From a virus: a stretch of DNA of 56,802 nucleotides. How positions within the stretch are numbered: the first letter of the stretch is position 1; the number at the start of each line of letters is the position of its first letter. Where the stretch lies: IMG/VR virus record IMGVR_UViG_3300049053_000110, positions 1-56,802 of that record; one strand, 5' to 3'. Position numbers and translations under genes: made by a program. The notes below the pieces were generated by a model that was not told where the DNA came from, made no database searches, and was given only the letters and a program-made list of their open reading frames with translations. Shown here one piece after another: positions 1 through 55,341 of the stretch.

Positions 1-134
1 CAATACATAAATATTTGTAAGCTTTTCGGTGTCGTTTTACAATTCATACACATTTTACTTTGTGTACATCAATTAGTTAAGTGTTTTTACATAGATTTTT
101 GTAAAAAGGTGCTTGTTGCTACAAAAATCTTTGT
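1..134. promoter_or_regulatory. Left-end noncoding region with palindromes
   Basis: There is no gene before about position 144. The stretch holds three dyads: TACACA (47-52) with TGTGTA (61-66) around an 8-nt spacer; AGATTTTTGTA (93-103) with TACAAAAATCT (120-130), an 11-nt perfect inverted repeat; and TACAAA (120-125) with TTTGTA (130-135), which overlaps the second arm. Such dyads in front of the first early gene suggest operators. No clean TTTG / TAnnTTTG promoter pair with correct spacing was found. If the genome is circular, this region would lie between the divergent integrase and the first early gene. Confidence 0.45.
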
Positions 135-143
135 ATGTTTGTC

Positions 144-416
144 ATGTCAACGGTAAATCAACACGACAGCAACATGAAAACAACGGATGAAAATAAAATA
201 AAAACACAACTTGACCAAGCAAACGAGCTTTTGAAGGAATTGGCTATCAATGTGACTTCAGAGGATAAGAAAGAAGCTGAAAAAAAATACTCCAGGTTTA
301 CCATAGCTACTTATCTCAAAGGTGAAGCTAAAGATTTAGACATCGCCGTTGATCTAATCGGAATATTCAAAAAGAGGATACAGGAAAGAGACAAGCTTTT
401 AAAAAAGGCGGTATAA
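144..416 (+). CDS. Small hypothetical early protein
   Basis: A 90-residue, charged, lysine- and glutamate-rich protein that is probably mostly helical and cytoplasmic. I do not recognise the family. An ATG at 135 is in the same frame, but it overlaps the palindrome at 120-135. The ATG at 144 is therefore preferred, and one at 174 is also possible. It is the first gene after the left-end palindromes, so it is probably expressed early and may be regulated by them. Confidence 0.6.
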   Translation: MSTVNQHDSNMKTTDENKIKTQLDQANELLKELAINVTSEDKKEAEKKYSRFTIATYLKGEAKDLDIAVDLIGIFKKRIQERDKLLKKAV

Positions 417-503
417 AGGAAAGTATTGTAAAACAAAAATTTTCATAAATCGGTGTTTTGTTAATGTGAATTAACGGTTACGCACACACTAAATCTAACT
501 GAC

Positions 504-764
504 ATGAGACAAAAAGCTCTTAATACGCTGTACTATTTGGTATGCAATTATGCAATGGTTGTTTTCTGCCTGGTTGCTTTTGTTAGCTTCTTTCTTCTGC
601 TATATAACATTTATGATTTAGCAGTAATGGAGTTGCAAAGAGTAGATAAGTCCGAAGATGTAACGGTTGAAAAAGTAGTCATCTGTGTTGCTGGTGGCAG
701 ATACATACAAGTGCAGGTTGTAAGGAAGATGAAGCGGGTAAAAAACAAAATCGCTGGACTTTGA
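504..764 (+). CDS. Small membrane protein, unknown function
   Basis: An 86-residue protein with one strong hydrophobic segment at about residues 17-36, followed by a short soluble domain and a basic C-terminus (several K/R in the last 15 residues). This predicts a single-pass inner membrane protein. No family is recognised. Its TGA stop shares bases with a possible TTG start of the next short frame (TTGA overlap). Confidence 0.6.
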   Translation: MRQKALNTLYYLVCNYAMVVFCLVAFVSFFLLLYNIYDLAVMELQRVDKSEDVTVEKVVICVAGGRYIQVQVVRKMKRVKNKIAGL

Positions 765-904
765 AAGTAGTGGTAAACAATATTAGTGATCGTGAAAAGC
801 AAGTAAAACGCTTATCGGAAATGCTTGTTGAAAAATGGAATGCACAACCGGTAAGGCGCCGCATAAAAAAAGCGAACACGGGAAATGTTCGCTCTAATTC
901 TTAA
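761..904 (+). CDS. Possible short basic protein with TTG start
   Basis: A 47-codon open frame begins at a TTG that overlaps the TGA of the upstream gene. The same 4-nt overlap style recurs in this genome with ATG, GTG and TTG. The peptide is lysine- and arginine-rich, with no recognised domain. The only ATG in the frame is at 821 and would leave 27 residues. The evidence is only the coupling geometry and the open frame, so this could be noncoding. Confidence 0.35.
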   Translation: MKVVVNNISDREKQVKRLSEMLVEKWNAQPVRRRIKKANTGNVRSNS

Positions 905-922
905 CTGACAAATTAAAAAGAC

Positions 923-1252
923 ATGGCAAAGGTAAACGTTTTTGAAATCACTTACTACAAAGACGACTTGGCATATCTCTCCAAGTATGCTCTTAAATAC
1001 GAAATCATTGAAACCATAGATGAAAAAATTGGCTTCCTGCGCATTCGCATAGAGCTCAATTCTAACTATGATCTTACCTGCTTTGCAGTGGCTAACAGCG
1101 AATGTGGTTTTGATAAAGGCAAAGCGCAGTGGTTAAAAGGTCGCCTGGTTGTTGTTGATGCAAACCCCGCAATTGAGCAATCAATTGATGATAAAATTTT
1201 CAAAACAGATTTTCAAAACGAAATTTTTCAAAGGGAGGTTTCAAATGTATAA
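923..1252 (+). CDS. Hypothetical early protein
   Basis: A 109-residue soluble protein with mixed charged and hydrophobic composition, no signal peptide and no recognised motif. It is preceded by about 18 nt of noncoding sequence after the putative short gene. Its 3' end overlaps the start of the next gene by 8 nt, which suggests translational coupling in one early operon. Confidence 0.6.
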   Translation: MAKVNVFEITYYKDDLAYLSKYALKYEIIETIDEKIGFLRIRIELNSNYDLTCFAVANSECGFDKGKAQWLKGRLVVVDANPAIEQSIDDKIFKTDFQNEIFQREVSNV

Positions 1253-1544
1253 CGAAGTAATAGCAATGATCGCTGAGATCAAGGGCAACGGAACACTTCT
1301 TTTTAATGAGCCCGTGACCGTTCGGGTATCAGATAATGCTTTTCCTCTTGAAATATACGGGCTTGGTGTGTCGCCTAAAAAAGAATTGCACATAATGACA
1401 TTGCGAGACGATGGCCGCGGTAAGCCTATGGAGTGGTGGGATAAGATGGAGCCTACGGATGCAAATATTGATAAGTTATTGCCCGCTATCAATAAGAGAG
1501 TGCAATTAATCTACGGACAGGCTGTAAAACCAATGGCTGTATGA
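1245..1544 (+). CDS. Hypothetical early protein
   Basis: A 99-residue soluble protein. The frame is open from 1149, but the ATG at 1245 is chosen because a purine-rich AAGGGAGG (1231-1238) lies just upstream and it overlaps the previous gene only slightly. The sequence contains the pattern G-L-G-V-S-P followed by a short acidic stretch; no family is recognised. Its stop overlaps the next start as ATGA. Confidence 0.55.
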   Translation: MYNEVIAMIAEIKGNGTLLFNEPVTVRVSDNAFPLEIYGLGVSPKKELHIMTLRDDGRGKPMEWWDKMEPTDANIDKLLPAINKRVQLIYGQAVKPMAV

Positions 1545-1669
1545 AAGTACATGCGATCCCATACATGCGACTGGTTAGGACTTGGGCAAAGGAAAGGCGG
1601 TTAAGGTTTTTAACATGGGAGCAAATGTGTATCGCTAGAAGACTTTACGAATGCGAAAGAAATAACTAA
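1541..1669 (+). CDS. Very small basic protein (42 aa)
   Basis: A 42-residue, arginine-rich open frame whose ATG overlaps the TGA of the preceding gene (ATGA). It ends 4 nt before the next ATG. The tight packing between two other small genes supports a real coding sequence, although nothing is known of the product. It contains several Arg and two Trp residues and could bind nucleic acid, but that is only composition. Confidence 0.5.
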   Translation: MKVHAIPYMRLVRTWAKERRLRFLTWEQMCIARRLYECERNN

Positions 1670-1673
1670 GTGT

Positions 1674-1973
1674 ATGACAGATCAAAAATTAAAAGCCATA
1701 ACCTGGTTAAGCATCACACTGATAACAATTGCTCTTTGGACTACTGTAGCTGTTTTGATTTTCGGTTGTGCAATATGTCCTCCTGGTAGTGACCCGAAAA
1801 ATATTCAGAGGTGGGAGCACAAACACAAATTCAGAGTTGAACGAATTAAAGAGAAGAAAGGTGTTTATGTGGTGAAGTTCAGAAAGAAAGTTGCACTGCA
1901 ACCAACATTTGAGAAGCGGGTTTACGAATGCCTTCCCGACTCTATCAAGGTTGGCAAAGAAGTTCTTTTATGA
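1674..1973 (+). CDS. Small membrane-anchored protein
   Basis: A 99-residue protein with an N-terminal hydrophobic helix at about residues 9-33, then a basic soluble tail rich in lysine. It has a Cys pair near the membrane end (C-A-I-C). The prediction is a single-pass membrane protein with a cytoplasmic or periplasmic basic domain. No family is recognised. Its stop overlaps a following ATG (ATGA at 1970). Confidence 0.55.
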   Translation: MTDQKLKAITWLSITLITIALWTTVAVLIFGCAICPPGSDPKNIQRWEHKHKFRVERIKEKKGVYVVKFRKKVALQPTFEKRVYECLPDSIKVGKEVLL

Positions 1974-2227
1974 TAGTGTTCATATTAATAATCGTAGGGC
2001 TTGCTTATGCAGTCCTATGGCCACCAAAAAACTGGTTTCCTTATGGGAAGGGTAAACATCGAACTAATACTAAATGCAGAAGAAAGAAAAATCTATCTGC
2101 TACTAAAAACCGTGAAGGGGCAAAGCCCGTATGCTATCAAGTGCAGAATGATAAAGACAAAAGAAGAGTTGTATCAAATGATCAACCATTTCTATCAGCA
2201 ATCAAAAACCAGTTTCTGGCTAACTGA
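1970..2227 (+). CDS. Possible membrane peptide overlapping the next gene
   Basis: An 85-codon frame starts at an ATG that overlaps the previous stop. The first 18 residues are strongly hydrophobic. After about residue 25 the composition becomes an asparagine/lysine/arginine-rich string of the kind seen when a frame shadows another gene, and from 2043 it overlaps the next gene in a different frame. Either the two genes truly overlap, or a frameshift joins the hydrophobic start to the downstream frame. Confidence 0.3.
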   Translation: MIVFILIIVGLAYAVLWPPKNWFPYGKGKHRTNTKCRRKKNLSATKNREGAKPVCYQVQNDKDKRRVVSNDQPFLSAIKNQFLAN

Positions 2228-2315
2228 GGAAATAATTGGCAAGACAGCCTTAGAGTCTGTGATTGCCTTTAAAGGAGCTATGGCCTTGGATGGCCAACCA
2301 GCGACAGTCAGTTAA
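2043..2315 (+). CDS. Hypothetical protein, last gene of first operon
   Basis: A 90-residue soluble protein with a balanced composition, predicted alpha-beta. The frame is open from 2001; the ATG at 2043 is preferred because it removes an unlikely leader. No family is recognised. It ends 10 nt before an intrinsic terminator and so closes the first small-gene operon. Confidence 0.5.
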   Translation: MGRVNIELILNAEERKIYLLLKTVKGQSPYAIKCRMIKTKEELYQMINHFYQQSKTSFWLTEEIIGKTALESVIAFKGAMALDGQPATVS

Positions 2316-2324
2316 GATTTAGTA

Positions 2325-2355
2325 CGGCCTTGTATTTCTATACCGAGGCCTTTTT
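2325..2355 (+). terminator. Intrinsic terminator of first operon
   Basis: GGCCT (2326-2330) and GTAT (2332-2335) pair with ATAC (2340-2343) and AGGCC (2346-2350) around a 4-nt loop, followed directly by a T-run (2351-2355). It lies 10 nt after the preceding stop codon. Confidence 0.8.
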
Positions 2356-2410
2356 AAAACAGTTCTTAAAGTTTCTCATATACCTCTTCTTACGTTGAGG
2401 TTAATAATGG

Positions 2411-2441
2411 AAAACCTCCTTGTTCTCAGGGAGGTTTTAAA
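2411..2441 (+). terminator. Hairpin, possible second terminator
   Basis: AAAACCTCC (2411-2419) pairs perfectly with GGAGGTTTT (2430-2438) around a 10-nt loop. The downstream T-run is only the end of the stem itself, so it may be a weak terminator or the first stem of the RNA unit that follows. Confidence 0.5.
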
Positions 2442-2451
2442 AACAGAAAAA

Positions 2452-2467
2452 AGTTCTTTGAAATAAT
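2452..2467 (+). promoter_or_regulatory. BoxA-like element ahead of the RNA unit
   Basis: The 16-mer AGTTCTTTGAAATAAT occurs here and again exactly at 17973-17988. It resembles the boxA antitermination signal of rRNA leaders (a T/C-rich TTCTTT core followed by A). Here it stands at the 5' edge of a long gene-free structured region, just where an antitermination signal for an untranslated RNA would be expected. The function is inferred from similarity only. Confidence 0.4.
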
Positions 2468-2469
2468 TG

Positions 2470-2982
2470 CGTGGCTACGGAGCAAGTAAATATGACGTAG
2501 CAAACCGGCCTTACCAACTAGAGAGAGTTTACAACAATTGTTTGGTGGAAAAATCATGCTTGTCATGCATAGGCCGGTTAAACTCTTTGACCGTTAGCCT
2601 TGGAGGTCACTAATATGACAAGGCTAACGGTCACACAAAGTTTAAGGGAAACAGGAATGCACTTAGATGTGTGGCGGTTAAACGATGGGGTGGCGAAATG
2701 GTAGCCGCTGCCGATGGCCTTCGGCGATAACAAAGAAAGGTATCACTGTTAATTCGGGTTCGAATCCTGACCCCATCACAACCTTTCAGAGAGTGGATCG
2801 ATTGCCCTTGTGAAATTCCTGGGCTCGTGTACAGACAAGACTCTGTACTAATCGCAATGCCAACAATAAGCAGTCTTGTGAGGCGTGCGAGGGTAAGGAT
2901 TCAAGATGCTATCCCTTGCCGGTGGAGGAGAAATAACGGGAACCGGCTTTTTAAAAGTTCTTACTAACCCAAGCATAAATCA
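2470..2982 (+). ncRNA. Candidate large structured noncoding RNA with embedded tRNA
   Basis: About 510 nt without a credible reading frame, dense in base-pairing. Stems seen by eye: GCTACG (2474-2479) / CGTAGC (2496-2501); AACCGGCCT (2503-2511) / AGGCCGGTT (2571-2579), which encloses ACCAA (2513-2517) / TTGGT (2542-2546); GACCGTTAGCCTTG (2589-2602) / CAAGGCTAACGGTC (2619-2632), 14 perfect pairs, extended by CTTTG (2584-2588) / CAAAG (2636-2640); a tRNA-like fold (2684-2778); GTACAGA (2829-2835) / TCTGTAC (2842-2848), whose 6-nt loop can pair with 2873-2878 (8 pairs including neighbours) as a pseudoknot; and GCCGGT (2918-2923) / ACCGGC (2942-2947). The unit is framed by a boxA-like element and a strong terminator. 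This layout recalls the large ornate phage RNAs GOLLD and ROOL, which lie beside or contain tRNAs, but no sequence match to either is claimed. Confidence 0.5.
2684..2778 (+). tRNA. tRNA-like, long variable arm, expanded anticodon arm
   Basis: A full cloverleaf can be drawn: acceptor GATGGGG (2684-2690) with CCCCATC (2771-2777) and discriminator A; T8-G9; D-stem GCG/CGC with the GG of the D-loop; a long variable arm closed by TAACA/TGTTA; and a T-arm TCGGG-TTCGAAT-CCTGA. The anticodon arm is 18 nt instead of 17: TGCCG pairs with CGGCG around the 8-nt loop ATGGCCTT (or a 6-nt loop with one more pair). If T33 is the second loop base, the triplet would be GGC, or GGCC as a quadruplet. A long variable arm normally means Leu, Ser or Tyr, so the identity is unclear. 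No CCA is encoded. Confidence 0.6.
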
Positions 2983-3014
2983 AAGAGGCTGACAGTAAAG
3001 CCAGCCTCTTTTTT
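2983..3014 (+). terminator. Strong intrinsic terminator after RNA unit
   Basis: AAGAGGCTG (2983-2991) pairs with CAGCCTCTT (3002-3010), followed by a run of six T (3009-3014). It separates the gene-free RNA unit from the recombination operon that starts at 3058. Confidence 0.85.
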
Positions 3015-3057
3015 CAATCAGGAAATTTTTTAATCGATAAATCAAAATTACAGCAAA

Positions 3058-4020
3058 ATGCCCATTTTAAAACAATCAGAACCGTTACCGAAAAGGCCGG
3101 TAATCATTTTAATTTATGGCGAACCTGGTATTGGTAAAACTTCTCTTGCCAATACATCTCATGAGCCTTTACTTATCGACTTCGACAGAGGTAAGGACCG
3201 TGCAATTTTCAGAAAGGACACCCTTGTAGTAAACAAGTGGGAAGATGTGGAAGTTGAAGAGAAAGCAGGAACATTCGCCGGTTACAAAACGATCATCATT
3301 GATACCGCAAAAGCGGCGCTCGATGATTTTTTAATGAGCTACGTGGTGAAGAAAGATTATAAGAATGCGAAAAACAAACTTGCTGCTTATGGTGCTATTG
3401 GTGACGACTTTAAAATATTTGTTTCCAACCGCAGGAGCGAAGATGCGGACATTGTTATTGTCGCACACTCCAAAGATGATAAAGACGGAGAGGTGATAAA
3501 AAAGATACCCGATGTAACGGGCGGCTCTTATCAATTGCTTTTACGCATTGCTGACCAGGTGGGCTATATGAGCATGAAGAACAATAAGCGCACTATCCAA
3601 TGGGAGCCTACGGATAACACCATTGGTAAAAATGTAGCTCGTTTGGGTGTGACAGAAATTCCAGGCGAATCAGATCCAGCAGTGAAAAGTTTAATGGCTA
3701 AAATTATCGACACGGTTAAAAATTCTATTTGCGCAATCTCTGAGGCGCAGAATGAAGCGATACAAAAGGGTGAAAAGATCACGGCTGAAATAGAGGCCTG
3801 CAAATCTCCTGATGATTTGACATTGATACTCCCTACAGTGAATGCGTTACCCAAGGTTCAGAAAGAACCACTCCGGTTGAAGATTGCTGCAAAACAAAAA
3901 GCGCAAGGGTGGGAGTGGAATAAAGAGGAGTCGAAATTTTTTGACCCGAAAGCGAAGCAAGCGTCACTCGTCGATCCAGAGCCAGCGGAAACCCAACAGG
4001 AAGAGGAGTTACAGTTCTAA
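3058..4020 (+). CDS. Sak4-like RecA-fold ATPase (phage recombination)
   Basis: A 320-residue P-loop ATPase of the phage RecA/RAD55-like type (AAA_24, Sak4 group). Walker A is GEPGIGKTS at residues 21-29 and Walker B is IIID ending at about residue 82; a short N-terminal lead and a helical C-terminal extension follow. Known Sak4 proteins help single-strand annealing or recombination together with SSB. Here it opens an operon with a PD-(D/E)XK nuclease and a NinB-like protein, which supports a recombination role. The last residues are acidic and end in E-E-E-L-Q-F, reminiscent of the SSB C-terminal tip that recruits partners. Cytoplasmic. Confidence 0.8.
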   Translation: MPILKQSEPLPKRPVIILIYGEPGIGKTSLANTSHEPLLIDFDRGKDRAIFRKDTLVVNKWEDVEVEEKAGTFAGYKTIIIDTAKAALDDFLMSYVVKKDYKNAKNKLAAYGAIGDDFKIFVSNRRSEDADIVIVAHSKDDKDGEVIKKIPDVTGGSYQLLLRIADQVGYMSMKNNKRTIQWEPTDNTIGKNVARLGVTEIPGESDPAVKSLMAKIIDTVKNSICAISEAQNEAIQKGEKITAEIEACKSPDDLTLILPTVNALPKVQKEPLRLKIAAKQKAQGWEWNKEESKFFDPKAKQASLVDPEPAETQQEEELQF

Positions 4021-5281: not shown

Positions 5282-5966
5282 AGTATCAGTAACCACAATT
5301 GAAAAATTTCGTCGTTTCATGGTGGGCCTTACCTCATTCGATACAGAGGAGGCTTTGCTTGAATGCATAAAGGGTGTGTTCAAAGGCACGCCCAAAACTT
5401 CTTTCGGTGGAGCATATCACATAATCATTGAAGGGCAAAGTAAGCCATGCGTTTTAACTAAAAGCCAATACGCCGGTGATTATGTATTTACAGAAAAACA
5501 GGCAGCGCCGGCGCTCGAATATCGCAAGGCTCATCCAAGCATGGTGCATGAAATGAATGTGCGCAAGGTGTATGAAACTACATACATGCCCATCCAGGTA
5601 ACGGGTAGGGTAGATGCAGTGGAAGGCCTTTCGGTGCGTGATGCTAAATGTAAGTTCCGTGCGCCTGATTGGGAGGAGTATATCGATAGCTGTCAATGGA
5701 AGTTTTATCTCGACATGCTGGATGCAGAAATTTTCTGTTACGATGTGTTTGAAATAAAAGGGTTCAAGGAAGATGATTATTGTAAAAATCATTTGTTCCC
5801 TGATGTTCAGGTTTTAGGTCCTGAAACACTCGAATGCATTCGCTTCGCAGGCATGGAGCATCAACTTACAAATCTGCTTAACCTGTTTATGGGTTATGTC
5901 GTTAACCGTGACCTCTTCCAATATTTAAAACCGGCGATTGATGCCAACAAACTACCATTTGACTAA
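5274..5966 (+). CDS. PD-(D/E)XK exonuclease-like protein
   Basis: A 230-residue nuclease of the PD-(D/E)XK superfamily (YqaJ / Cas4 / RecB-like). The core signature is in order: G-R-V-D (111-114), D-A-K (123-125, the D-x-K half of the active site) and Q-W-K-F-Y (141-145, the Q-x-x-x-Y motif). The start at 5274 is chosen because AAGGAGG (5261-5267) precedes it and it gives a normal N-terminus; the frame is open from 5214. In such operons the enzyme resects double-strand ends to give single strands for annealing. Its stop overlaps the next start by one base. Confidence 0.75.
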   Translation: MYRVSVTTIEKFRRFMVGLTSFDTEEALLECIKGVFKGTPKTSFGGAYHIIIEGQSKPCVLTKSQYAGDYVFTEKQAAPALEYRKAHPSMVHEMNVRKVYETTYMPIQVTGRVDAVEGLSVRDAKCKFRAPDWEEYIDSCQWKFYLDMLDAEIFCYDVFEIKGFKEDDYCKNHLFPDVQVLGPETLECIRFAGMEHQLTNLLNLFMGYVVNRDLFQYLKPAIDANKLPFD

Positions 5967-6181
5967 TGGCATTAGTGGATTTGCAAAATAGAGTGATTTG
6001 GCAAAAGGCAGAACGTTCGGAATATCCGACTACCGAGTATGGGCATGTGAGAGAAGAGTTGAAGTATAAAATTCATCACAACGGTTTCTTTTATTTCTTA
6101 TATGAGTGGAGTGAAGCAAGGTGGAAGTATCGTGACCTTTTTGTTACTGTAAAGGATTTGAAAGAAAGATATCGTTATTAA
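5966..6181 (+). CDS. Small hypothetical protein
   Basis: A 71-residue protein rich in Tyr, Trp and charged residues. Its ATG overlaps the nuclease stop (TAATG). No motif is recognised. Tight coupling puts it in the recombination operon. Confidence 0.55.
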   Translation: MALVDLQNRVIWQKAERSEYPTTEYGHVREELKYKIHHNGFFYFLYEWSEARWKYRDLFVTVKDLKERYRY

Positions 6182-6191
6182 ATCGTGAGCT

Positions 6192-6644
6192 ATGACACAA
6201 TTCCTATGCACAAAAACTGCCGGTAGCATTAAGGTTCTTTTCGGCCAAAAGTTCCGGCAGGAGCTTATGCAAATGAAAGACGGTGAGTACTGGCTTGTAC
6301 TGAAACGTAAAGGCAAAAGAAGCTCTCAGCAAAATAGATATATGTGGGGTGTTGTCATATCCATGATCACAAGCCACCTGATACACTTAGGCAATGATGT
6401 GAACGACGAAGTGGTACACGAATGGTTAAAGCTAAAATTCAATCCGCAATACCTGTATGGTGAGAATGGCGAAGTGCTCGACACGCTGCCCGGTTCTACC
6501 GCTGATATGAATTTAGAACAGATGATTGCCTACTTGGATAAAATCATTGCATGGGCATGGCATCAATTCAAATTACATATACCGCCACCTGATGAAATAC
6601 AGATGGCAGAGATACGGGAAATGACTCAAAAGAATGTGGCGTGA
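6192..6644 (+). CDS. NinB-like recombination protein
   Basis: A 150-residue protein with the signature K-R-S-S-Q-Q-N-R-Y-M-W at about residues 42-52, typical of the NinB / lambda Orf-like family, which binds single-stranded DNA and assists phage recombination by acting on RecF-pathway intermediates. The length agrees with the family (about 140-150 residues). Its neighbours, nuclease and Sak4-like ATPase, support the call. Its TGA overlaps the GTG start of the next (interrupted) gene as GTGA, which also shows that TGA is an ordinary stop in this genome. Confidence 0.7.
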   Translation: MTQFLCTKTAGSIKVLFGQKFRQELMQMKDGEYWLVLKRKGKRSSQQNRYMWGVVISMITSHLIHLGNDVNDEVVHEWLKLKFNPQYLYGENGEVLDTLPGSTADMNLEQMIAYLDKIIAWAWHQFKLHIPPPDEIQMAEIREMTQKNVA

Positions 6645-6931
6645 CACCTGGAGGCGAATATTTCCTGAGCCAAGATGTTATCGGACCATACAGCGGTAAA
6701 GAGTGGGGCAAGCAGGGTGAAAAAGTAAGGCTCATTTCAATAAGTGGAACAATGGCAATAGTGAAAAGAGACAAGGATAAAGAAGGCTTTCTGATGTGAG
6801 CTGAGTGGTTGACAAGCAACAAACCGGCGATAGTGAAAGCGGTGGAGGAAATAAAAGAAGAAACTACAGAGCGCACATTGCTCTATAGTGAAAGAGGGAA
6901 AAAGAAACCAACAAATTCAAAACTTTTTTAA
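6641..6931 (+). pseudogene. Small gene interrupted by an in-frame TGA
   Basis: A GTG at 6641, overlapping the upstream TGA, opens a 96-codon frame that is interrupted once by TGA at 6797-6799 and then continues to TAA at 6929-6931. Both halves read as one ordinary soluble protein: a small beta-rich N-terminal half, then E-W-L-T after the stop and a charged helical tail. No other disruption is visible. The simplest reading is a point mutation or sequencing error changing a Trp, Cys or Arg codon; readthrough is possible. The function is not recognised. Confidence 0.6.
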
Positions 6932-17869: not shown

Positions 17870-17944
17870 CGCGGGGTGGAGGAGTGGTTCCTTGCCTCTT
17901 TGACTTGGAGGAGACCGGTAGTTCGATTCTACCCCCCGCAACCA
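17870..17944 (+). tRNA. tRNA with anticodon GAC and C1:A72 mismatch
   Basis: A complete cloverleaf of 72 nt plus encoded CCA. The acceptor strand CGCGGGG (17870-17876) faces CCCCGCA (17934-17940): six pairs and a C1:A72 mismatch. The discriminator is A and CCA is at 17942-17944. D-stem GAGG/CCTT has a GG loop; anticodon stem CCTCT/GGAGG has loop TTGACTT (anticodon GAC, valine); the T-arm is GGTAG-TTCGATT-CTACC. Position 8 is T. A C1:A72 mismatch is the hallmark of initiator tRNA, but the anticodon is not CAU and the three G:C anticodon-stem pairs are absent. Position 37 is T rather than a purine. Confidence 0.85.
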
Positions 17945-17945
17945 G

Positions 17946-17972
17946 AAAAAGGAGCTTTAAACGGCTCTTTTT
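17946..17972 (+). terminator. Terminator after tRNA
   Basis: GAGC (17952-17955) pairs with GCTC (17964-17967), and the flanking A-run (17946-17950) pairs with the T-run (17968-17972) around an 8-nt loop. It lies directly behind the tRNA. Confidence 0.7.
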
Positions 17973-17988
17973 AGTTCTTTGAAATAAT
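17971..17988 (+). promoter_or_regulatory. Second boxA-like copy
   Basis: The 16-mer AGTTCTTTGAAATAAT at 17973-17988 is identical to that at 2452-2467. The 13-mer TTAGTTCTTTGAA (17971-17983) recurs at 31973-31985. The element follows the terminator of the tRNA and precedes the promoter of the DUF932 gene. The role is inferred, not shown. Confidence 0.35.
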
Positions 17989-18055: not shown

Positions 18056-18089
18056 TTTGCTACTTTTTCAAAAATAGTTGTATATTTAC
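18056..18089 (+). promoter_or_regulatory. Bacteroidota-type promoter of DUF932 gene
   Basis: TTTG (18056-18059) and TATATTTAC (18081-18089) are separated by 21 nt. They match the Bacteroidota consensus TTTG at -33 and TAnnTTTG at -7 except for the last G. A second TTTG (18048-18051) lies slightly upstream. It sits 45 nt before the ATG at 18135 and after a terminator, so the following gene has its own transcription start. Confidence 0.55.
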
Positions 18090-19132: not shown

Positions 19133-19555
19133 ATGTTTATTCTAAAATTATATGATCGCAAAGGCAGAGAGTTGAACACGGGCGACATAGTAAAAATATC
19201 GAACGGCAAGTATTTTACTTTTTGGGCAGAGGTAAAGTATCTGCAAAAAGAAAAGGTTATCACTCCGTTCCATACGTTCAGTTTCCATTCCTTCGAAAAA
19301 GTTGACAAGGTTCCTGAAAATGCTACAAAGAGCACTGAGGATCGTTACAATATTTGGTATGTGTATCAGGACGAAGCAGAGGAAGATAAAGAAGCAAATA
19401 AATTCGAACAGTATTTGATGGATTGGCGCATATGCGAGCATTTGTTAGACGATAAGTGTTTTAGGATTGCTTTAATCGAAGGGAAAAATGTCGGCACTGG
19501 TTTTCCTCCAGGTGGTCCAAACGACGAGGCTGCGATGATAGCAGCACACGGTTAA
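19133..19555 (+). CDS. Hypothetical protein
   Basis: A 140-residue protein. The N-terminal part reads L-Y-D-R-K-G-R-E-L-N-T-G-D-I-V-K-I, like small beta-barrel phage domains; the C-terminus is acidic and helical, then glycine-rich. No function is recognised. It is flanked by terminators on both sides, so it is another single-gene unit; no clear promoter was found in the 52 nt before it. Confidence 0.55.
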   Translation: MFILKLYDRKGRELNTGDIVKISNGKYFTFWAEVKYLQKEKVITPFHTFSFHSFEKVDKVPENATKSTEDRYNIWYVYQDEAEEDKEANKFEQYLMDWRICEHLLDDKCFRIALIEGKNVGTGFPPGGPNDEAAMIAAHG

Positions 19556-19560
19556 CGGCA

Positions 19561-19582
19561 AAGGGAGCACGAATGCTCCCCT
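19561..19582 (+). terminator. Hairpin terminator
   Basis: AAGGGAGC (19561-19568), loop ACGAAT, and GCTCCCCTT (19575-19583). The stem is strong but the T-run after it is short, so termination may be incomplete. Confidence 0.6.
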
Positions 19583-19644
19583 TACTTGTCATTCAATTGC
19601 AAACACTTAAAAGCATCTACAAATGAGGTGCAAAGGTAGATTTT

Positions 19645-20340
19645 ATGGAACTAATAATAAATTTTTCTGGCGGCAAGGATAGTTCGGCAATGCTTGCTTA
19701 TCTGTGTGAAAAATATCCAGAAATTAAAAAGCATGTTGTTTTTGCTGACACCGGATGGGAACATAAAGACGCCGAGGCCTGGTGCCGACAAATAGTTTCA
19801 TCCTTTGGATTGGAATTGCATGTTGTTCGAAATAAGAATAAGACATTGTTGACTATGGCGGAACAGCGAGGCAAGTTTCCAGGCATGCAGCAAAGACAAT
19901 GCACCAGCGATTTAAAACGCGATCCGATTGCCAGTTGGATTCGAAACAATGTAAAAGATAAATTGATCATTAATTGCTTGGGCATTCGTTCTGAAGAAAG
20001 CAGCGGGAGGAAAAAACAAAGAAAGCTAAAGCGGAATAATCGGGAAACAAATTCAATGCGCACTATTTGGGATTGGGCGCCAATTAAAGATTGGACAGAA
20101 AAACAGGTCTTGGAATATCTTGAACAAAAGGGCATACCACTGCATCCCGTGTACAAATACCTGCATCGATTTTCTTGTCGTGTGTGTATTTTCATGCAAG
20201 AGCATGAGATAAAGGCTGTAAGCGAAAATGATCCCGAGGCAATTGATATTATTTCAAACGTGGAGAGGAGAATCAATTTTCACATGACACAAAGCGGCTT
20301 TATTGATGAAATTATCAAACGTCAAGCAATCGTTGCATAA
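19645..20340 (+). CDS. PAPS-reductase-like PP-loop protein
   Basis: A 231-residue member of the phosphoadenosine phosphosulfate reductase family (PP-loop ATPase fold). The PP-loop S-G-G-K-D-S is at residues 8-13; R-Q-C-T-S-D-L-K and G-I-R-S-E-E-S are the following family blocks, and a C-R-V-C pair lies near the C-terminus. The enzymes activate with ATP or move sulfur; phage copies have no proven substrate and may modify DNA (as DndC does) or tRNA. The next two genes are tightly linked, and a second PP-loop gene follows, so the three probably act together. Confidence 0.8.
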   Translation: MELIINFSGGKDSSAMLAYLCEKYPEIKKHVVFADTGWEHKDAEAWCRQIVSSFGLELHVVRNKNKTLLTMAEQRGKFPGMQQRQCTSDLKRDPIASWIRNNVKDKLIINCLGIRSEESSGRKKQRKLKRNNRETNSMRTIWDWAPIKDWTEKQVLEYLEQKGIPLHPVYKYLHRFSCRVCIFMQEHEIKAVSENDPEAIDIISNVERRINFHMTQSGFIDEIIKRQAIVA

Positions 20341-53151: not shown

Positions 53152-55341
53152 ATGAAGAAACTAACCACCATTCTTTTAATTTTCTTGTCAATTTTCACCA
53201 CCACCGTTAACTCACAAACTAAAATTCCTATTTACCCTCAATATCTATGGGAAATCAATAATGGAAATCCTGAAGGTTTGTGGATGCTTTTTGACGGCAT
53301 AACTAACCATTGGGTAGAAGATGGTTGGGGAAAAATATTTAAAGATTATGACGTGTATTATGAGTTTCCGGAGGCCCAGGGTGTGACGCTTACAAAAATG
53401 CGTGCCCATGACTTTGAGGCTTCGACAACTACACCAACAAAATTTTATTACTCCACCGTCGATAAACCTTTTGAGTTTGTAAAATTCTATGAGTTTTACG
53501 GACCCGATTATTTGTTCTGGCATGATATACCAATGCTTAATGTAAAAGTGAAGTATATAAAGATTGAATGTATCAATGGATTTCTTCCCACTGAACTCGA
53601 GTTCTTTGGTTCATATAATGCCTCATTTGTTGTACCTGCATTAAAGACGCCAAGGCGATATCCTTTCAAAAACATGGTAGGTGTGAACGGTAAGGTGTGG
53701 AGTGTTGGCGGTCCAAAATCAAATGGTGTGTATTTGAATGGTGAAGTAGATTTCAATAAAGTAGCACTGATCAAAAAGACATTTAAAACCTTCCGATTCT
53801 ATGCAGAAAAAAGCATGTATGAAATCGATAAAGACCGATATGCTTTTGCTCCAACTCCTAATGGTGGGTGGAACTATGATAAAGTGCTCACAGCATTAAA
53901 AGATGCCGGCGTTGAAGTGTTGTTTGATATCAAAGAATTACCTCTATGGCAGATGCAAACCTATCCGGTTGCTGAGCAACGTGGCGAACTGGCACCGGTG
54001 AATTATGGTGCAAGTAAAGAACTGGTTGAATCATATAGAAGTGATGGACAAACCTTTTTCCAGGTAACAGCAAGGTATGGCCGCTCACAGGTAAATTCTT
54101 CACTGTTAAAAACCGATGATAAAAAAACAGGCCTTGACCTAATACATAAAATTGAAGTCAATAATGAGACCAATGCATATTGGGGTGGTCTGCTTCGCTA
54201 TCAAACACCTTATGAATACGTGATGAATCTTTCTGTTGTTTACGATGGCCACAAAGGAACGATGGGTCCGGGAGTAGGTGTAAAGACAGCTGATCCTACA
54301 ATGAAAGTAATCATGGGTGGAAGTGCCGGCGCCGATGCATTTTATTTAAGAGGCATTATCATGGCCTGTGAACAAATCAGAGGTCGCAAAGCTGACGGTA
54401 CAATTGATGTTCCTTTTGATGGAATAAATTACCATTGCTATCAGTCAAATGCCAACATGCCTCCTTATCCAACCATTTATAGCTGTAAGGCAGGAAGTCC
54501 GGAAAGCACCAACTTAAAAAAGCTGCAGGAAGACATTGAATGGTTGAAGCAACAGTATATGACTGAAAATATTGAGGTATGGCAGACCGAGACGGGTTAT
54601 GATATTCATCCGGAAAGCAATGGAGCGCCGGTACCTCTACCTGGCATGGATGTAGAGCATACTGTTGCTGCTTTCGACGTGCGCACTTCTTTGCTTTATG
54701 CTGCTACAGGACTTTATGCGTTGGATTATTATATGATGGAAGATGTTCGATGGAGTAGTGAACTGTACACAACCAGCGGAATGGTGGATGCTAATTACAT
54801 GGCAAGGCTTCATACACAATACCTGCATCAAGCAGTAAAGTTTTTAGGAGAATACACCTTTAGCAGATGGATAAGTGAGAGCCCTCGCATTGCTGAATTT
54901 GATAGTGCTGGCGTTAAAAGGTATGCAGCCTGGCATGAAACAAGCAATGGCAAAACATCTGTTTACTCACTGCCCAATACCACGTTTAAAGTGTACGGAT
55001 TGGATGGAAGCATCGTTCCCAAAGATGTGGTTACAATTACTGAGACACCAGTGTTTTTTGATAAAATCAATTTAACTGCACTACCAATTAACAACCCGCC
55101 AAAAGGTAAAGGCCCACGTAAAAAAGATGAGCCGATAATATTAGCCTATCCAAACCCTGCACCGGATTATATTATTTATGAAAAAATGAAAAACGAAGTA
55201 GTGCACATCTATCACATGAGCGGCCAATTGGTGCGTGTAACAAAGGCAGATGCAAAAGGGAAAATCAATACTCAAAATCTTACACTTGGTATTTATACTG
55301 CATTAAGTCAAACTAATGTGATGCAGTTTAAAAAGCAGTAA
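53152..55341 (+). CDS. Secreted glycoside hydrolase with T9SS sorting domain
   Basis: A 729-residue protein with a signal peptide (residues 1-21, ends N-S-Q), an N-terminal beta-rich discoidin-like region (about 25-160) and a (beta/alpha)8 catalytic region. Two glutamates fit clan GH-A: E339 in V-N-N-E-T-N-A-Y (acid/base) and E480 in W-Q-T-E-T-G-Y (nucleophile). Residues about 661-729 are a type A C-terminal sorting domain (Y-P-N-P-A-x-D-Y, I-Y-H-M-S-G-Q-L-V, L-G-I-Y-T) which directs type IX secretion in Bacteroidota. It is probably a lysogenic-conversion gene that degrades an external or capsular polysaccharide; the substrate is not known. It is followed by a strong terminator. Confidence 0.85.
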   Translation: MKKLTTILLIFLSIFTTTVNSQTKIPIYPQYLWEINNGNPEGLWMLFDGITNHWVEDGWGKIFKDYDVYYEFPEAQGVTLTKMRAHDFEASTTTPTKFYYSTVDKPFEFVKFYEFYGPDYLFWHDIPMLNVKVKYIKIECINGFLPTELEFFGSYNASFVVPALKTPRRYPFKNMVGVNGKVWSVGGPKSNGVYLNGEVDFNKVALIKKTFKTFRFYAEKSMYEIDKDRYAFAPTPNGGWNYDKVLTALKDAGVEVLFDIKELPLWQMQTYPVAEQRGELAPVNYGASKELVESYRSDGQTFFQVTARYGRSQVNSSLLKTDDKKTGLDLIHKIEVNNETNAYWGGLLRYQTPYEYVMNLSVVYDGHKGTMGPGVGVKTADPTMKVIMGGSAGADAFYLRGIIMACEQIRGRKADGTIDVPFDGINYHCYQSNANMPPYPTIYSCKAGSPESTNLKKLQEDIEWLKQQYMTENIEVWQTETGYDIHPESNGAPVPLPGMDVEHTVAAFDVRTSLLYAATGLYALDYYMMEDVRWSSELYTTSGMVDANYMARLHTQYLHQAVKFLGEYTFSRWISESPRIAEFDSAGVKRYAAWHETSNGKTSVYSLPNTTFKVYGLDGSIVPKDVVTITETPVFFDKINLTALPINNPPKGKGPRKKDEPIILAYPNPAPDYIIYEKMKNEVVHIYHMSGQLVRVTKADAKGKINTQNLTLGIYTALSQTNVMQFKKQ

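Follow-up and report, generated by a model that had tools for sequence, protein, structure and literature searches.

A boxA-led, gene-free phage unit that contains a leucine tRNA mimic

Described systems and the present locus

Two phage RNAs and one bacterial element are among the closest described systems. Many GOLLD RNAs are longer than 800 nt and some carry a tRNA in a linker, and ROOL is a large phage RNA with pseudoknots that occurs near tRNA islands (PMC12286853). In Bacillus cereus, rapid amplification of cDNA ends (RACE) placed tRNA-Other, a non-translational tRNA-like element with regulatory effects, within a larger RNA that continues beyond it in both directions (PMC3399842). Here we describe a gene-free unit at positions 2452-3014 of IMGVR_UViG_3300049053_000110, a 56.8-kb virus contig whose full 56,802 nucleotides are referred to below as the window. 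The likely product of the unit is a structured RNA that surrounds a leucine tRNA look-alike (2684-2777, + strand) lacking a usable anticodon. At about an even chance, we read it as an accessory, non-coding cassette in a temperate phage of Bacteroidota, with an rRNA-type boxA at its head and a terminator at its end; its core would be a tRNA-Leu mimic that cannot decode and would serve as a decoy. An earlier note on this DNA had instead likened the unit to GOLLD and ROOL.

The window RNA is not GOLLD or ROOL. At Rfam gathering thresholds nothing was found in the unit, and a lenient search of 2300-3100 with Rfam 15 gave no match to either family at E<=5; the tRNA family alone was meaningful. In the tRNA/tmRNA clan this search shows the best match only, and one lower-scoring overlapping match is unnamed. 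The GOLLD model scored 261-307 bits in phage loci that we fetched and thus works on related material; the ROOL negative is to be read with a positive control for the GOLLD model only. Membership in either family, as entertained in the earlier note, was therefore not borne out by covariance models. The comparison itself survived. Like GOLLD (RF02032), the window probably encodes a structured, non-coding, phage-borne RNA, and the same boxA leads GOLLD in other phages found here, but the conserved 3' region of GOLLD is absent from the window. ROOL is likewise phage-borne. Transfer-messenger RNA (tmRNA; RF00023) shares a tRNA-like fold with an insert replacing the anticodon arm, and the same boxA stands ahead of the phage tmRNAs found here; unlike tmRNA, the window has a Leu-type D arm, and neither ARAGORN nor the Rfam gathering score gave a tmRNA call in the window. 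A group I intron, RNase P RNA and a riboswitch were considered and set aside, with no Rfam match in the unit.

The nearest architectural precedent is tRNA-Other, which also lies as a tRNA-like element inside a larger RNA. Unlike the window element, it is one chromosomal element flanking a genomic island and was studied as a host regulator; to our knowledge, it is not phage-borne, is not Leu-type, has no boxA and belongs to no covarying family. No paper on anticodon-less phage tRNA-like elements was found in the open-access papers searched, which is not proof of novelty.

The leucine tRNA mimic and its phage family

The embedded tRNA-like sequence that the earlier note had noticed was recovered at 2684-2778 (Rfam tRNA model, 34.2 bits in the lenient search). 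On the + strand it comprises an acceptor stem (2684-2690/2771-2777) with discriminator A2778, a D stem (2693-2695/2706-2708), an arm at the anticodon position (2710-2725, GCCGA-UGGCCU-UCGGC), a variable arm (2728-2732/2747-2751) and a T arm (2754-2770), and all of its arms are fully paired. A functional tRNA has a 5-bp anticodon stem and a 7-nt loop with U33; here the loop, UGGCCU, has 6 nt. For this reason the ARAGORN call of Arg(tcg) is unsupported by the cloverleaf and was discarded. The element has the acceptor, D arm, variable arm, T arm and A73 in common with phage-encoded tRNA-Leu, and differs in having no usable anticodon, a T stem of the form xCxGG/CCTGx and a longer span from the D to the T arm.

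In the whole 56.8 kb, model R1, built without the window, matched 2684-2777 and nothing else (57.5 bits, E 1.9e-12). The element scored 40.1 bits with R2, a model of 17 normal phage tRNA-Leu. R1 also finds normal tRNA-Leu, at up to 64 bits, so score alone cannot separate the two classes. What sets the window element apart from normal tRNA-Leu is its 6-nt anticodon loop, its length, the wobble-kept CCTG strand of the T stem and an AT spacer after the variable-arm stem. Membership in the mimic class was judged from the higher score with R1 than with R2 and from structure: the acceptor, D and T arms are paired, a variable-arm stem adjoins the T arm, and the 6-nt loop leaves no canonical anticodon arm.

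Similar elements were found in other phages. A scan for boxA with a tRNA-Leu D arm gave seven stretches, among which L155, L212 and L213 are boxA-led RNAs with Leu-type tRNA-like elements without a canonical anticodon arm; ARAGORN called none of the three. In the fetched loci, the spacing from D to T arm was 32-43 nt in normal tRNA-Leu and 33-239 nt in elements without a canonical anticodon arm. A general exact-match scan of viral contigs, with parts of the D and T arms fixed and the acceptor left free, returned at least 120 stretches with at least 114 distinct elements, the window's included. Among the 114 listed, all seven acceptor pairs formed in 100, against approximately 42 with partners shuffled, and 37 different acceptor sequences occurred, with AGTCAGG/CCTGACT in 71. 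Among the matches listed, A73 was present in 97/109, a canonical anticodon arm was kept in 3/109, and a stem of the kind seen in long variable arms adjoined the T arm in 65/105 versus 29 in shuffles.

An alignment of 51 rows was used to evaluate covariation. Its rows were selected for 7/7 acceptors, which inflates the percentage paired, the unselected figure being the 100/114 above. Each of the seven acceptor pairs shows changes in both partners, and the whole structure holds 144 double-change cells (0/500 shuffles; partners slid, 12-24). Unguided RNAalifold returned the same 15 pairs. The tRNA-like sequence, treated in the earlier note as an accessory, is in fact the one part of the unit for which a family can be demonstrated, and this is neither GOLLD nor ROOL.

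The mimics sit in the tRNA arrays of large phages, often in multiple copies with differing middles, and also singly in intergenic gaps of 40-70-kb phages. The cultured Bacteroides phage BS-TP2 carries an unannotated one at 19550-19656, between two genes and approximately 4 kb after a Sak4 gene; with a member in a cultured phage, the class is testable at once. In seven Bacteroidota genomes, R1 matched 4-7 times per genome, and almost all matches were as long as a normal tRNA-Leu. Such mimics are often overlooked or given a wrong name by standard tRNA finders. Phage tRNA genes are usually read as an aid to translation, and covarying, non-decoding lookalikes of tRNA-Leu point to another use of the tRNA shape.

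Two further loci were recorded in passing. In L414 (2991-3574), approximately 150 nt separate a tmRNA-like element from a downstream tRNA-Leu mimic of the non-decoding kind, and an Algoriphagus chromosome, in a region that is possibly prophage, has two over-long R1 matches of 122 and 124 nt close together (G021:C72:377218-377883).

Anatomy of the unit and the RNAs led by its boxA

The unit is gene-free, as the earlier note had it. No credible open reading frame was found in 2316-3057: on the + strand of the unit, frames reach at most 48 aa from TTG, 46 aa from GTG and 42 aa from ATG, the last beginning within the tRNA-like element, and the longest - frame has 51 aa (TTG start). The boxA-like element that had been proposed is present at the head of this non-coding stretch, the arrangement expected of a boxA-led stable RNA unit. 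It is the 16-mer AGTTCTTTGAAATAAT (2452-2467, + strand), and its 9-mer core, GTTCTTTGA, occurs four times in the window versus 0.8 expected. Terminators had been claimed on both sides. Hairpins of this kind can indeed be read on the + strand behind the upstream gene, which ends at 2315 (~2326-2355, GGCCT...AGGCC then TTTTT), immediately 5' of boxA (2411-2438, AAAACCTCC...GGAGGTTTT) and at the end of the unit, where sequence and fold agree (~2982-3011, or ~2982-3012 with its U run). A consensus scan missed the first of these and found no more terminators than in shuffles.

Several strong stems were confirmed on the + strand. The helices of the 5' domain (2474-2579) include, in the predicted fold, GCTACG/CGTAGC (2474-2479/2496-2501) and the 9-bp AACCGGCCT/AGGCCGGTT (2503-2511/2571-2579). 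These are followed by a perfect 14-bp hairpin, GACCGTTAGCCTTG...CAAGGCTAACGGTC (2589-2602/2619-2632; 0 expected), and a 17-nt loop motif, AAGGGAAACAGGAATGC (2644-2660). In the minimum-energy fold only, a predicted 9-bp helix, ACUCUUUGA/UCAGAGAGU (2582-2590/2786-2794), would enclose the central part including the tRNA-like element. Downstream is the hairpin GTACAG/CTGTAC (2829-2834/2843-2848). The earlier note had its loop pairing at 2836-2841/2873-2878; the complementarity is stronger than that, extending to all 8 nt of the loop ACAAGACT (2835-2842/2872-2879). A 6-bp hairpin with such an 8-nt loop match occurred in 6/2000 shuffles, in a test framed post hoc, and the match is a possible pseudoknot or intermolecular contact.

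The fold of 2470-3014 is more stable than expected (z = -3.7; 0/100 shuffles equally stable). By part, z was -4.2 for the 5' domain, -2.9 for the tRNA-like element and -0.7, which is ordinary, for the 3' domain (2780-2960). A stable fold is predicted for the reverse strand as well (z = -5.1), so fold energy alone leaves the strand unfixed; it is fixed by boxA, the orientation of the tRNA-like element and the flanking genes.

Homologues were sought in viral contigs (by exact match), phages, plasmids and related virus records, and the evidence for covariation is confined to the mimic. For the full RNA of approximately 545 nt, blastn against phages and plasmids, nhmmer on the fetched loci and a DNA search of related virus records yielded boxA-sized matches only. 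In viral contigs the 17-mer AAGGGAAACAGGAATGC is found exactly in the boxA-led L213 only, with a loose near-match in L133; in 84,980 species genomes its matches look random and nearly all lie in open frames. L213 also repeats the window's order of hairpin then boxA, and one small gene separates its RNA from a P-loop ATPase gene.

These data bear on the suggestion that the unit is a large ornate RNA. In its full form, the proposal is of a new class working like GOLLD and ROOL: one multi-domain fold of approximately 545 nt, perhaps oligomeric, with the tRNA-like element as linker cargo. We consider this unlikely. The boxA common to GOLLD units, the central tRNA-like element, the overall stability, the 9-bp helix around that element and the 8-nt loop complementarity, whether inter- or intramolecular, would all suit it. 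Against it are the missing GOLLD and ROOL matches, the want of an alignable homologue in the scans made, a 3' domain at chance and the fold of the best architectural relative, L213, which reaches z = -1.3 only. The resemblance to a structured, non-coding RNA was thus upheld, and conservation of the whole of approximately 510 nt as one ornate RNA was not.

The company that boxA keeps in other phages is varied. A complete exact-match scan of viral contigs with AGTTCTTTGAAATAATD gave 102 stretches, many of which are chance matches within coding genes. BoxA lies directly 5' of GOLLD units (L025, L058, the L121/L154/L170 cluster and L167), of tmRNA or tmRNA-like starts only a few nt away (the L105 cluster, L192, L146, L148, L137 and L151), of tRNA genes (L050, L130, L162, L163 and L186) and of stretches without an Rfam assignment (L051, the L081 cluster, L093/L100, L133, L155 and L161). 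The tmRNA is confirmed by model in L105 and L192, the other four being assigned by a common opening sequence. This association comes from a scan with the unscrambled 16-mer alone. Several of these RNAs have a TATNTTTG promoter just upstream of boxA, a position taken by a hairpin in the window, L155 and L213. Similar boxA-like elements, AGTTCTTTAAGAAA and AGATCTTTGAAAG, occur in the leaders of Bacteroidota 16S genes. As a single 16-mer scan retrieved GOLLD, tmRNA, tRNA arrays and several RNAs outside every Rfam family, boxA is a cheap marker for phage non-coding RNAs.

Some of these loci have features of their own. The GOLLD RNAs lie in IMG/VR contigs at 417-825(-) in L025, 936-1349(-) in L058, 9775-10175(-) in L121 and 5811-6230(-) in L167, with boxA approximately 400 nt or more before the 3' region covered by Rfam; in L025 and L121 a promoter-like element, TATCTTTG, is immediately ahead of boxA. 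L167 carries tmRNA and GOLLD approximately 360 nt apart on the same strand of one contig (5080-6230). In L148 (12829-13423), boxA and a tmRNA-like start are followed approximately 380 nt downstream by a group I intron (68 bits), which may interrupt the tmRNA. The reverse strand of L161 (~5871-6690) has a run of elements, each with a perfect acceptor-like closing stem and with ACCTGAAT-type spacers between them, that resembles an array of tRNA-like decoys. L051 (after boxA at 764, reverse strand), L093/L100, the L081 cluster and L133 are boxA-led, non-coding stretches of approximately 300-620 nt without an Rfam family, L093 and L100 being clear mutual homologues.

Functional readings and genomic context

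Under our preferred reading, an accessory cassette with the tRNA-Leu mimic as its core, boxA would let host Nus factors shield the untranslated transcript from Rho, so that it could accumulate. The mimic would be presented inside the structured RNA or cut out of it by RNases P and Z, and would then occupy a protein that acts on tRNA. A defence nuclease that attacks tRNAs would be the likeliest such target, with leucyl-tRNA synthetase (LeuRS) or EF-Tu as alternatives. The mimic keeps the acceptor, A73, elbow and variable arm but drops decoding, which suggests an RNA that tRNA-handling enzymes recognise and that takes no part in translation; it is probably a decoy for such enzymes. LeuRS does not need the anticodon, so charging of the mimic may be possible. 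Phages facing tRNA-cleaving defences would gain from decoys, and tRNA-targeting immunity is the obvious suspect. More tentatively, and at somewhat below an even chance, covarying tRNA-Leu mimics without an anticodon arm may form a class that is widespread in phages, mainly those of Bacteroidota, and has gone unrecognised. Its members would counter host functions directed at tRNA, either as decoys or as leucyl acceptors that do not decode, and the window would show an elaborate form in which the mimic is part of a boxA-led structured RNA.

Several observations weigh against the cassette. The window element is atypical, as it keeps a 5-bp stem at the anticodon position, unlike most members, and scores 57.5 bits with R1 versus 70-78 for typical ones. 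The pattern of the general scan was designed partly from the window, so identity in the D and T arms is not independent evidence. Most mimics were found alone or in tRNA arrays, outside any large RNA, and a general link with boxA was rejected (boxA upstream of 4/98 mimics and downstream of 4/98); boxA and mimic are thus usually separate features that are combined in the window. Several other boxA-led RNAs have a promoter of the Bacteroidota type, but there is none just ahead of the boxA at 2452: the only TAnnTTTG element in 1-3100 sits at 134, with none between 142 and 3100. Finally, the decoy role is one that we infer indirectly, from the parts that the mimic keeps and drops.

It is also improbable that the unit is simply a precursor transcript, from which RNases P and Z would trim a roleless leader and trailer to leave a tRNA-like RNA of approximately 94 nt as the sole product. 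In its favour, the acceptor stem and elbow, features read by RNase P, are intact, and BS-TP2, like several other loci, has the mimic by itself in a short gap between genes. Against it are the stability of the 5' domain, far beyond chance, and the 17-nt loop motif outside the mimic, common to the window and L213.

The cassette as we read it is an accessory in its gene neighbourhood. Directly downstream is the gene for a Sak4-like single-stranded DNA annealing ATPase (3058-4020, + strand), which lies outside the RNA. The nearest relative of this protein (64% identity, L003) has protein genes directly upstream of its gene and no such RNA, and the RNA is absent next to a 54% identical Sak4 in a Chitinophagales genome (G189, L383). 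Relatives of the gene thus occur without the RNA, which makes the unit accessory; from the three loci compared, it was either inserted into this gene order or lost from the relatives. Since boxA elements can act in cis, the position of the unit would allow it to control the Sak4 operon as a leader or an antitermination element. That is very unlikely: a terminator hairpin stands between the unit and the gene, Sak4 relatives manage without the unit, and elsewhere boxA leads RNAs that are themselves products (GOLLD, tmRNA and tRNA). Least credible of all is debris, a tRNA-Leu gene in decay within intergenic DNA that has no function. The anticodon loop is broken and the flanks have no alignable homologue in the searches made. 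However, the arms of the window element are all fully paired, and in its family covariation of the acceptor pairs goes with loss of the anticodon arms, which is the reverse of what neutral decay would give.

The window encodes terminase, portal, capsid and tail proteins, the Sak4-like annealing protein and an integrase, and so represents a temperate tailed phage. An attachment site was set aside as an explanation by inference from position, since approximately 2.7 kb lie between the left end and the tRNA-like element and the integrase is encoded at the opposite, right end; no search for attachment-site repeats was made. The protein encoded at 53152-55341 has a C-terminal sorting domain of the type IX secretion system (Por_Secre_tail), which points to a Bacteroidota host and is unusual cargo in a phage. 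At 17870-17988, a tRNA-Val is followed by a terminator-like hairpin and then by a second exact copy of the boxA 16-mer (17973), after which a Bacteroidota-type promoter lies ahead of the gene at 18078.
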